A stretch of 64,000 nt of DNA from Parvularcula maris. GTDB lineage: Bacteria; Pseudomonadota; Alphaproteobacteria; Caulobacterales; Parvularculaceae. The stretch's first letter is position 1; each line of letters opens with the position of its first letter. Shown in pieces: positions 31,981 through 43,149 of the stretch. The DNA lies in the NCBI RefSeq assembly GCF_024505085.1, contig NZ_JANIBC010000001.1, forward strand, positions 620,001-684,000, in the 5' to 3' direction. The translations under genes and the position numbers were made by a program. A model generated the notes under the pieces. It was not told the DNA's origin. It saw nothing but the letters and a program-made list of their open reading frames with translations, and ran no database searches.

Positions 31981-31997
31981 TGCAAGCTATGTGCCAA
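31981..31997 (-). promoter_or_regulatory. Sigma-54 (-24/-12) promoter for VPLPA protein A
   Basis: On the minus strand TTGGCACATAGCTTGCA matches the sigma-54 consensus TGGCAC-N5-TTGC with GG and GC elements 12 bp apart. Transcription should start near 31970, giving a leader of about 27 nt. An enhancer-binding activator is required; PrsR-type regulators do this in described PEP-CTERM systems. Confidence 0.8.
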
Positions 31998-32039
31998 GGC
32001 AGTGGTAGACGGGTTTGAATATTGCCGCAGCGGTTTTCT

Positions 32040-32095
32040 ACTCTCTTCACCTTTCCCTCAGGGAGAGGTCGAAGGCTGCTGAAGCAGGTTTCGGT
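32040..32095. repeat. REP-like unit in the gap upstream of VPLPA gene A
   Basis: A TTTCCCTC-AGGGAGAGG element followed by a GAAGGCTGCTGAAGCAGG-type middle segment and a GGTGAGGGCG end. It shares its layout with the units at 15.2 and 20.3 kb, but its sequence is more diverged. Confidence 0.55.
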
Positions 32096-32131
32096 GAGGG
32101 CGTCCTCAGAACTAATTCCGTCAATTACTCG

Positions 32132-32325
32132 GGCGTTTCTATCCTCAGCAAACGCCGGTGGCCCCCTCCGCCCTTCGGGCACCTCCCCCACTGCGTAGGG
32201 GAGGGAAGCAGAACCAACGTCCGCTCTCTGTATCGCTCCCCTCTAGAGGGGGAGCTGCCGGCAGGCTGAGGGGGAGGAGCCACCAGCGCCTATGTTTTCA
32301 TCTGTTTGCTAAGGATAGAAACGCC
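32132..32325. repeat. MITE-like element with 22-bp terminal inverted repeats
   Basis: Bases 32132-32153 and 32304-32325 are inverted repeats matching at 21 of 22 positions. They bound a 194-bp segment with no coding capacity that contains a 116-bp dispersed repeat (32162-32277). The flanks are AT-richer than the genome. No target-site duplication is obvious. The structure resembles a miniature inverted-repeat element or a large cruciform. Apart from these repeats, nothing else is seen in the 509-bp gap 31944-32452 except the sigma-54 promoter at 31981. Confidence 0.6.
32162..32277 (+). repeat. Dispersed 116-bp repeat, copy 1
   Basis: It begins CCCCCTCCGCCC, has a CACCTCCCCCA...TAGGGGAGGGAAGCAG block, and ends GGGGGAGCTGCCGGCAG then GCTGAGGGGGAG. 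A second copy lies at 62521-62636 in the opposite orientation. The middle (about 32217-32245) is variable between copies while both ends are nearly identical. Confidence 0.85.
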
Positions 32326-32452
32326 ATTATTTATCCTCACTCGATATAGTAAACATCAACCTCTCCCTTCGAAGAGATTAGCGCAACCACCCTCGGCGGG
32401 GGTTTCCGGCACCGCCGTCGAAACCGACCCACTAGCACCAGAGCGAGGCAGC

Positions 32453-35400
32453 TCAGTCCTTCTTCAGATTGGCCAGCACCGCAAACGGGCTGTCCGGGTC
32501 GGCCTCTTTGCGCTTTCTCGGGCCGGAACTGAAGGTTCTCGGCTTCTGATCCTTGGGCGGACGTTTGCCGCCCTTACCCTTCGGACCCTGGCTGCGGGGA
32601 CCGTCGCGTTTCTCGCCTCGCTGTCCGGGCTTGCCGCCCCGGCGACCGTCTTTCTGGTCGCGGCGGGGGCCGCGCGGCGGCTGGTAGCGCCAGAGGGTGA
32701 CCGTCTCAGTGACAGTTTCGCCCTCCGCTAGCGGAGCTTCAGCGGGCGGAGTTTCCGTAACTGGAACATCTTGGGAAGCTGCCTGGTGTGTCTCGGTCGG
32801 TTCGGCTTGGGAAGTTTCAGCTGCCGGGTCACTGGTCGGCGCTTCTGCTTCCTTCTCTTCGGATGCCGGTTCCGACACGGCCTGCTCGGCTTCGGCGGTT
32901 GGCGGAGCGGTCCCCACCTGCGTCGCTGCGTCAGGAGCCTGGCCCTCCGCTACCGGCTCATCCGCCGGAAGCTGCCTCGCCGCGGTGGCCGCGGGGTCCT
33001 CGACGGTCTCCGCCACCGGGTCGGCGACCACGGGGGCCGCGACCTTCACCTCACGCTCCACGGTCTGCTTCTTGTAGCCAAGGTTCTTGAGAATGTCCTC
33101 GAAGGCCTCGCCGGAAACGCCGACCAGGCTCATCATGCGCTGGTTGGTCTCGAAGCCCTGGCGGCCGCCTTCGTCGCGGGCCTTGCGAATCTCCTGGGCG
33201 AGGCGCTCCAGCATGTCGATGCGCACGGCCCGCTTGCCCGAGGGTCGGTAGCCGACGGCGTACCAGAAGGCGTGCGGCACCGTCTCGTCGGCCTCGACCG
33301 AGGTCGCGCCCGCGGGCGGCAGGGCGTATCTGCCCGGTGCCGCCTCGCTGCTGAGGGACCAGAGGAGGCCGAGAAACTTGGCCGGGGCGGGTTTGAGAAG
33401 GGCGGGGAGGTGCAGCGTGTACTCGCCGAAGCGCACACCGAGTTTTCTGAGGCCCGCACGCTCATCCTGGGTCAGGGCTTTGACCTCATCGGCGATGGGG
33501 CGGCGGGACATGGCGCCGAAATTCTCGACCAGGCGGAAGGCCACGCCTCTTGCGTTCGCCGACAGACCTTCGGGATCGTCGGATGGTCTGTTCAGCGCGC
33601 GCTGCAGAGCGACCAGCGGCCCGGCCAGACCTTCGACCCGGTCGGCGATGAACTGGCGCAAACGGTCCTGCACCGCGCCCACGGCGGAAGCGGGCATGTG
33701 CTCCATCGCCACCAGCTCGAAATCGGGCCGCAGGGGCTGCGGGCCGCGTCGGAGCTTGGCGATGGGGCTGCCGCGCCAGGTGATCTCACCGCTATCGGCC
33801 AGCTTCAGCTCGTCCGGCTTCGCTTCAGCCAAAGCGGAGGCACGGGCCATCAGCTCCGGGCCGAGAGCCTTCAGCGCGGCAAAGCGCACGCGCTTCTCGT
33901 GCGGCCCCCTGGCCTTGGGGTCGAGGATGAACTGAAAGCCCAGGAGCCTTCCTACGAACTCGCCTTCCACGACGACCTCTCCATTGTTGCGGACGCCTGC
34001 CAGGAGCGGGGCGTCGTCCTTGAGACGCTTCAAGAGCACTGAGGTGCGCCGGTCAACGAAGCGTTGCGTCAGACGCTCGTGCAGGATGTCCGAGAGCTTG
34101 TCCTCGATCCGCCGCGCCTCGCCCTGGAAGTAGCCCGCATCGTCCAGCCAGCCAGAGCGGTGGCTGAGATAGGTCCAGGTGCGCACATGGGCGATGCGGT
34201 TCGAGATGGCGTCGATATCGCCGTTCGGATTGTCGAGGCGGCTGAGCTGCAGCTCGGCCCACTCCCGGCGGATGCTGCCCCGCTCAATGAGCTGCTCGTA
34301 GAGCTCGCCCAGGATGATGGCGTGCTGGTCCGGGGTGACCTTGCGGAAGTCGGGGACTTGGCAGACCTCCCAGAGCAGCTTCAGCGCTGCGCCGCCCCTG
34401 GCCATCTCGCGGATGTCGTGACGCCGCGCGAGTCGGCGTAGGGCGTCCTCGTCATCGTCGGTTCTGGCGCGGACCAGGCCTTCTTCGGTTGGCGCCTGCT
34501 CCAGCGACTTCAGAAGGGCGGGCAGGCTGCCGAACCGAACGTTCGGGTTCCGCCACTGCAGCGCGGTGACGGGCTGGAACGTATGTTCGGTAACCTGGTG
34601 GATCAGCTCCTCGTCGAAGGGCGGGCACTCCGCCGTCGAGCCCCAGGTGCCGTCGCGCACGTGGCGTCCCGCGCGGCCTGCGATCTGCCCCACCTCGGCA
34701 GGCTGCAGGTTCCGCGCGTTGCGGCCATCGAACTTCCTCCCTTGCGCGAAGGCCACATGGTCGATGTCCATGTTGAGGCCCATGCCGATGGCGTCGGTGG
34801 CGACGAGGTAGTCCACCTCGCCGTCATTGTAGAGCGCGGCCTGGGCGTTGCGGGTGCGGGGGCTGAGTGCGCCCATCACCACCGCCGCGCCGCCGCGCTG
34901 ACGCCTGATCAGCTCGGCGATGGAGTAGACCGCGTCCGCTGAGAAGGCCACGATAGCGGTTCTCCGCGGCAGGCGGGTCACTTTCTTATGGCCCGTATGG
35001 GTGAGCTGGCTGAAGCGCTCCCGGCCCAAATACTCGATGCCGGGGACCAGCCGCGACAGGATCGGCCCCATCGTGTCCGAGCCGAGAAGCAAGGTCTCGT
35101 GCTGGCCCCTTGCGTGCAGGATACGGTCGGTGAAGATGCGGCCCCTGTCGGCATCGGCGGCGAGCTGCACCTCGTCGATGGCGAGGAAGCTGACCCGGCG
35201 TTCGAGCGGCATCGCTTCAACCGTGCAGACCCAGTAGCTGGGGTTCGGCGGGACGATCTTCTCCTCGCCGGTGATCATCGCCACCGCCCGCTCGCCGCGC
35301 CGGTCCACCATCTTCTCATAGACCTCACGAGCGAGAAGCCTCAGCGGCAGGCCGATCATGCCCGTGGGGTGGGCGGCCATCCGCTCCAGCGCGTAGAAGG

Positions 35401-42562: not shown

Positions 42563-42581
42563 CCGGTTCGCTGCAAGCGAA

Positions 42582-42606
42582 AGAAAAGGTCCGGGGGACC
42601 TTTTCT
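42582..42606. terminator. Symmetrical terminator hairpin after aspS
   Basis: A perfect 11-bp stem (AGAAAAGGTCC / GGACCTTTTCT) with a 3-G loop. The T-rich 3' arm (TTTT) acts as the tail. It lies 19 bp after the aspS stop. Confidence 0.7.
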
Positions 42607-42649
42607 AGGCGCAGAAGGGCACAGCAGGGGCGCTTTTTTAGGGAGCGAG

Positions 42650-43075
42650 ATGTTGCTTCGTCTCTTTGCGATCTCCATCGTGGCGCTGGTGCTGACGAGC
42701 TGTGCCTCTGCACCTCGCCCAGTTGCTGAGGAAGAGGAGCTGACCGGCGTTTGGCGCCTCATCGCCGTCGGCGCGCCCGAAGGGCTTCCGGACGGCAGCG
42801 TCCAGCTTCTCTCATTCCGCGAGGACGGTGTAACCGTTCATCGGTGCCCAGGGGAGCCGCTACCACTAGCTTTTCGCGACGGTAGGCTCCGACGGGATCC
42901 GTCCCGAGGCAGCAACGAACTCATCCTGACTGAGTGTCCCAAAACTACCTGGGCGCCAACATACCGCTACATCGACCGTGTACTCTATGCCGAGCCCGAG
43001 CTGAAATTCGCCGGGCGGAGGCTCATCATTACCGCCGATACGGGAGAGTTGCTCGTGCTCAAACGGCACCACTGA
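42650..43075 (+). CDS. Predicted lipoprotein of unknown function
   Basis: 141 residues. Signal peptide and lipobox MLLRLFAISIVALVLTSC-A. The mature part begins EELTGVWRLIAVGAPEGLPDGS and looks like a small beta-barrel lipocalin- or META-like domain, with an ILTECPKTTW strand and a second Cys in TVHRCPGE. Family not firmly recognised. AGGGAGCG lies upstream of the ATG. Confidence 0.7.
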   Translation: MLLRLFAISIVALVLTSCASAPRPVAEEEELTGVWRLIAVGAPEGLPDGSVQLLSFREDGVTVHRCPGEPLPLAFRDGRLRRDPSRGSNELILTECPKTTWAPTYRYIDRVLYAEPELKFAGRRLIITADTGELLVLKRHH

Positions 43076-43132
43076 GCCAGAACCGGCGGTACTGCGCACT
43101 GCCAACACTCACCCCTAACAAAACCTTACCGG

Positions 43133-43149
43133 TTGGCACGGAAGCTGCA
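43133..43149 (+). promoter_or_regulatory. Sigma-54 promoter for VPLPA protein B
   Basis: TTGGCACGGAAGCTGCA matches TGGCACG-N4-TTGCA with one difference (CTGC). GG and GC are correctly spaced, and the predicted start near 43160 is about 21 nt before the ATG. It lies in the 105-bp gap before the gene. Confidence 0.75.

Follow-up and report, generated by a model that had tools for sequence, protein, structure and literature searches.

A candidate sigma-54 regulon joining a minority of exosortase-sorted proteins with polysaccharide genes in Parvularcula maris, apparently without PrsK/PrsR

Which exosortase-sorted proteins does sigma-54 control in Parvularcula maris, and through which activator? 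The question arises from a 64,000-nucleotide stretch of its genome (the window; C1:620001-684000 of the 3.19 Mb, 48-contig genome G000), in which two genes for exported proteins with sorting tails each follow a 17-nucleotide sequence resembling the -24/-12 promoter element of sigma-54 (RpoN). A reading made from the sequence alone had proposed that both belong to a sigma-54 regulon for surface-matrix proteins, with PrsK and PrsR as the regulators to look for. We find that the elements stand before such genes, are enriched there, and recur in orthologues. They likely mark a small RpoN regulon that would comprise a minority of the tail genes, polysaccharide genes and an XRE regulator, under an activator other than PrsR.

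The first element, TTGGCACATAGCTTGCA, lies on the minus strand at 31981..31997, 37 nt from the ATG (at 31943) of tail gene 1 (31317..31943, minus strand), which encodes an exported protein of 208 amino acids with the sorting tail ATPLPGAAALILPALGVAVARRKRKV. The second, TTGGCACGGAAGCTGCA, lies on the plus strand at 43133..43149, 31 nt from the ATG (at 43181) of tail gene 2 (43181..43810, plus strand), which encodes an exported protein of 209 amino acids with the tail EVPVPGALPLMAAGMAGLGFAKRRRKA. Both were read directly from the sequence, at the places and on the strands first proposed, and in both the GG and GC are intact and 10 nt apart. Scored against the -24/-12 consensus with weights of our own (maximum 20.7), they reach 20.7 and 19.7, respectively. 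From their position, the enrichment before tail genes, and the conservation in orthologues, we regard the two 17-mers as very probably functional sigma-54 promoters. The third tail gene of the window (53304..54221, minus strand; a DUF4394 protein of 305 amino acids, PF14339 127.8 bits) shows no GG-N10-GC site between -130 and -15 (score 0), as already noted in the sequence-only reading, and is placed outside the regulon.

The tails had been called VPLPA-CTERM. Our own tail profile of the genome, whose seed included the tails of all three window genes, finds all three proteins (tail gene 1 at E 1.1e-6), but the VPLPA-CTERM model TIGR03370 (cut-off 25.35 bits) scores the tail gene 2 protein at 19.6 and the third at 19.2 bits, both below cut-off, and leaves the tail gene 1 protein unmatched; the tail gene 2 protein does pass the PEP-CTERM model TIGR02595 (18.1 bits, cut-off 16). 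About 40 tail genes are found in the genome by our profile, and 8 tails exceed the TIGR03370 cut-off. The expected machinery is present in this alphaproteobacterium (NCBI taxonomy: Parvularculales, Alphaproteobacteria), with XrtD as the sole exosortase above cut-off (476 bits, cut-off 400) and one match to rpoN.

The pattern itself is not in excess: allowing up to two mismatches, the window holds 40 matches against 55 expected by shuffling, and allowing up to one, the genome holds 115 (71 of which we viewed in context) against 221 for the reversed pattern, ruling out a genome-wide motif excess. Such counts would suit the explanation that a GC-rich genome produces these sites by chance. Against this, the enrichment before tail genes is specific to strand and position. 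We defined a strong site as one scoring at least 18, with GG and GC intact, at -130 to -15 of the start codon, and we applied this to 158 tail genes from the genus comparison, which covers ten Parvularcula genomes (our own G000 and nine others, G001-G009). The set comprises 40 genes of our own (43 profile matches less 3 dropped as partial or as no real gene) and 118 from seven congeneric genomes (120 listed ones of 212 tail matches in the nine, less 2 without a start codon), each with a script-chosen start codon at the signal-peptide start. Strong sites precede 16 of the 158, as compared with 0 on the reverse strand, 1 for the reversed pattern and 0 for the complement; without the window's three genes, 14 of 155 remain, and 500 dinucleotide shuffles average 1.2 and never exceed 5. 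Lowering the threshold to 16.5 yields 23 tail genes, with between 7 and 14 in each strand control of the three, and the contrast fades. On the strand control, the shuffles and the conservation in orthologues we reject the chance explanation as very improbable. What exceeds chance is the position before tail genes and the conservation in orthologues, not the frequency of the pattern.

Genes without tails provide a further comparison, drawn from the window and six other stretches (L410-L415; 157.5 kb with the window), three of which had been picked for a site or a regulator, and in which genes were called crudely by a separate script. In the window and the three stretches not chosen for a site (L411, L412 and L414), none of the 109 non-tail genes has a strong site; L415, taken for its regulator, has one before a flippase among 8 non-tail genes, and L410 and L413, both chosen for a site, contribute one site gene each. 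Across the 157.5 kb, 24 sites score at least 18, and 9 of these are intergenic, though intergenic bases make up only 13%. By genome, strong sites precede 5 of 40 tail genes in G000, 4 of 37 in G001, 1 of 25 in G003, 1 of 6 in G004, 2 of 13 in G007, 2 of 12 in G008, 1 of 21 in G009 and 0 of 4 in G002. Sites thus stand before roughly a tenth of the tail genes and do not represent a general control of sorting-tail proteins here, and sigma-54 control of all tail genes is ruled out (5 of 40 in our own genome). The candidate promoters instead assign a minority subset to sigma-54, most tail genes being without a site. The proposed surface-matrix regulon is partly supported, with sites before further tail genes and before polysaccharide genes.

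For tail gene 1, six of the other nine genomes of the genus have a relative at E <= 1e-10, and four of these relatives are clear orthologues (53-64% identity in the mature part). All four carry a GG-N10-GC site upstream: TGGCACGGCAATTGCT in G009 (score 20.7, at 40 nt), CGGCGCGACATTTGCA in G001 (18.2, at 50 nt), TGGCATCGTTCATGCA in G002 (17.7) and CGGCATCATTCATGCA in G008 (16.7), the distance in the last two varying with the choice of start codon. When anchored on the site, the 100 bases upstream show 22-37% identity, which is near random. Only G002 and G008 share a leader, with 25 of the next 30 bases in common, and because of this common flanking sequence their sites are not independent and amount to nearly one case. 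The G003 relative is equally far from tail gene 1 and from its paralogue (33% and 32%) and has the site TGGCATCAAGCCTGCA (17.7, at 38 nt), and the G004 relative is the orthologue of our own paralogue at C4:64405 (54% identity, versus 33% to tail gene 1). Tail gene 2 has one genus relative over the threshold, in G001 (51% identity), whose ATG follows the site CGGCATAAGGATTGCT at 36 nt. Our own genome also holds a degraded copy of tail gene 2 (L116, G000:C9:33633-34196; 36% identical, with four in-frame stops), which lies close to another tail gene, C9:34529.

A further tail gene with a site, on contig C7, emerged from the exact pattern TGGCAC-N5-TTGC, which occurs six times genome-wide; two of these occurrences sit 38 nt (counted from the GC) before the ATGs of tail genes, namely tail gene 1 and the C7 gene. 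Relatives of the C7 gene have the site TGGCACGGCCCTTGCT at 75 nt in G001 and TGGCCCCTCCCTTGCA at 40 nt in G016, which, like G026, G028 and G032, is a family relative from another genus. The C7 protein may resemble thioester domains: Cys76 and Gln126, candidate residues of an internal thioester, are invariant in 5 of 5 relatives, the match to the thioester domain PF08341 is weak (14.4 bits, below the cut-off of 22), and the structure model has no usable fold (pLDDT 32). The tail gene 1 protein has no Pfam family and a predicted CBM32/discoidin-like fold (AlphaFold mean pLDDT 76.7), for which the best Foldseek match is the CBM32 of AlyQ (7d2a_A; E 1.5e-5, 10% identity, TM 0.74 by target and 0.49 by query). 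Such a predicted fold would fit polysaccharide binding.

Sigma-54-like sites also precede genes for polysaccharide synthesis and regulation. One lies 38 nt before the ATG of a chain-length determinant (L410 15462-17093; G000:C1:271462-273093), whose best model, TIGR03007, scores 124.8 bits, below the cut-off of 278.85. This gene shares the 38 nt distance from site to ATG with tail gene 1 and with the tail gene on C7. Intergenic sites are further found 29 nt upstream of the flippase gene, 36 nt upstream of an XRE regulator gene, and 141 nt upstream of the WecG gene (score 18.2). We consider it quite likely that the polysaccharide genes belong to the same regulon as the tail genes. A gap in L415 (7773-8297; G000:C1:211773-212297) lies between a run of WecG, hybrid kinase and LuxO-like regulator genes and the divergent flippase, and contains two divergent sites scoring 18.2 each. 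StaR of Caulobacter is an XRE-type protein. StaR is a known target of the TacA relay (PMC5590869).

As for the regulator, the PrsK/PrsR pair named in the sequence-only reading is not borne out. The classical regulon described for PEP-CTERM genes of Proteobacteria has the same promoter type and the same kind of cargo (PMC1569441), and both activators with the GAFTGA motif in our genome partly match the PrsR model TIGR02915 (384.7 and 346.4 bits). None of the three proteins with a sigma-54 activator domain, however, reaches its cut-off of 502.6, the best match to the PrsK model TIGR02916 in this genome is 87 bits against a cut-off of 300, and TTTACA, the terminal part of the PrsR box (at its 3' side) and the part searched for, does not occur in the 230 nt upstream of any of the 19 sites. 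With both models below cut-off and TTTACA absent, control by PrsK/PrsR is rejected, and we give it next to no credence; another regulator probably does the job of these usual partners. According to Haft and others (2006, PMC1569441), who foresaw further regulators, the box is 17 nt long, ends in TTTACA, is found some 63 nt further upstream than the -24/-12 motif, and accompanies that motif at 99 of 167 proteobacterial PEP-CTERM genes. The PrsK/PrsR/PrsT regulon and the candidate regulon of P. maris are thus alike in exosortase cargo, the -24/-12 element and the link to polysaccharide, whereas here the exosortase is XrtD, the tails are of VPLPA type, no PrsK or PrsR is found above cut-off, TTTACA is lacking, and about one tail gene in ten has a site. 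Another comparison is pepA of Aquincola tertiaricarbonis (PMC9850573), which is RpoN1-dependent with a mapped start and TGGCAC/CTGCTT at -24/-12; TGGCAC likewise precedes both window genes, but that strain has PrsK/PrsR, and the evidence there is experimental where ours is comparative.

Three proteins in the genome have a sigma-54 activator domain (E <= 1e-10). We set NtrX aside (666.8 bits, cut-off 600) because it is without GAFTGA in all ten genus genomes; the motif is also missing from the third protein with an activator domain in G007 (L142) and in G008 (L143, presumably RtcR-like). The second is a LuxO-like regulator (459 bits, below the cut-off of 800) that carries GAFTGA; its gene follows those for a PAS hybrid kinase (with receiver and Hpt domains) and a WecG/sugar transferase, and the run adjoins the divergent flippase and glycosyltransferases of a polysaccharide cluster. 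This setting, with the two divergent sites in the gap beside it, suggests that the LuxO-like regulator with the hybrid kinase might activate the tail and polysaccharide genes of this genome, as a lineage-specific counterpart of PrsK/PrsR. We hold this to be rather unlikely: only G000 and G009 of the ten genomes have the regulator, and tail genes have sites without it in G001, G003, G004, G007 and G008.

The third is a stand-alone NtrC-type response regulator (L060), which we call TacA-like and which scores under the cut-off of each named model compared (for example NtrC 424.1 of 558.6 bits, FlbD 358.1 of 750). Its GAFTGA is kept in all ten genus genomes; beyond the genus, several relatives, including those of Phenylobacterium, have GSFTGA. 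In G001-G004 it is the only activator with GAFTGA, nothing else but NtrX being found there. Because such sites stand upstream of tail genes of G001, G003 and G004 and of the tail gene 1 orthologue in G002, the TacA-like protein is the likeliest common activator, and on balance we favour it as the conserved activator across the genus; as G001 is 89% complete, an activator may have been missed there. Caulobacter TacA has the acceptor D54 and a C-terminal Ala-Gly degradation signal (PMC7010744) and, in the ShkA-ShpA-TacA phosphorelay, activates the sigma-54 targets staR and spmX (PMC7010744, PMC5590869). The protein of P. maris is alike in being a response regulator and sigma-54 activator, in its acceptor D at position 54 (a count that is shifted in most of the other genus proteins) and in its terminal Ala-Gly. 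The targets named there, however, serve the stalk and polarity and include no exosortase cargo, and among the ten genus proteins Ala-Gly ends only 2 (L060 and G003), with TG in 3 and AS in 5. Three Phenylobacterium relatives (61-63% identity) end in AAA, and for these reasons the name is given only by inference. It is conceivable, though on balance unlikely, that in Parvularcula a TacA-type phosphorelay regulator, which in Caulobacter times polar development through c-di-GMP, has replaced PrsR and turns on a matched set of sorted proteins and polysaccharide genes via sigma-54.

Several observations weigh against a small RpoN regulon with a non-PrsR activator. Just 5 of our 40 tail genes have a site, and the one at C1:347558 (TGGCGCGGTAGGTGCT, 83 nt) is doubtful. 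Some orthologue sites are weak (16.7-18.2), and those of G002 and G008 share flanks and depend on the start codon for their distance. No site is found before the paralogue at C4:64405 (best 14.7) or its G004 orthologue, and among the C7 relatives the GC is gone in G026, the only candidate in G032 scores 15.5, and nothing in the broken copy of G028 exceeds 15.0. G005, with a single weak tail match (E 0.044), and G006, with none, also keep the TacA-like protein; it is therefore not specific to tail proteins, and tail genes have been gained or lost within the genus. A second activator with GAFTGA is present in G000 and G009. Lastly, a motif search for enhancers in 28 upstream stretches led to none being claimed: palindromic and plain models beat single-base shuffles, but the distances of their matches vary widely, and many of the stretches probably overlap adjacent genes.

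In the small RpoN regulon that we nevertheless prefer, RNA polymerase carrying RpoN would occupy each promoter until a phosphorylated enhancer-binding protein opens it. The targets would be an XrtD-sorted minority (the CBM32-like protein, the tail gene 2 protein and the thioester-domain-like C7 protein) together with the chain-length determinant, the flippase and at least one XRE regulator. The activator across the genus would most likely be the TacA-like protein, and in P. maris itself the LuxO-like regulator encoded with the hybrid kinase may act too.

Two other high-scoring intergenic sites lie in the window, both on the minus strand and both of uncertain membership: CGGCACAACCCTTGCA (39431..39446, score 19.7), 180 nt before the ATG of flhF (TIGR03499 118.4 bits, below the cut-off of 174.15), and CGGCACAAAGTTTGCC (40108..40123, score 19.2), 141 nt before the ATG of sciP (NF051866 140.5 bits, cut-off 100). 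These are motility and cell-cycle genes. Another intergenic site of the genome lies 64 nt before a gene that we take to encode pyruvate phosphate dikinase. Elsewhere in the window, two genes (59408-60775 and 63678-64000) start with a near-identical lipoyl-domain-like sequence of about 42 shared residues.

In the literature collection searched, we found no paper on exosortase with Parvularcula, exosortase with TacA, or PEP-CTERM with Caulobacterales; for VPLPA-CTERM it held a denitrifying-reactor study. PrsK/PrsR have been linked with the sigma-54 control of exosortase cargo since 2006, and here the promoter type and the polysaccharide link appear without those two proteins. If this is true, another regulator can take over the wiring of a sorted-protein matrix, and should the TacA-type reading hold, matrix and sorted proteins would appear at the switch from motile to attached life. 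The roughly five tail genes of 40 form a short list for co-expression with polysaccharide genes, under candidate activators that can be named, one or two per genome.

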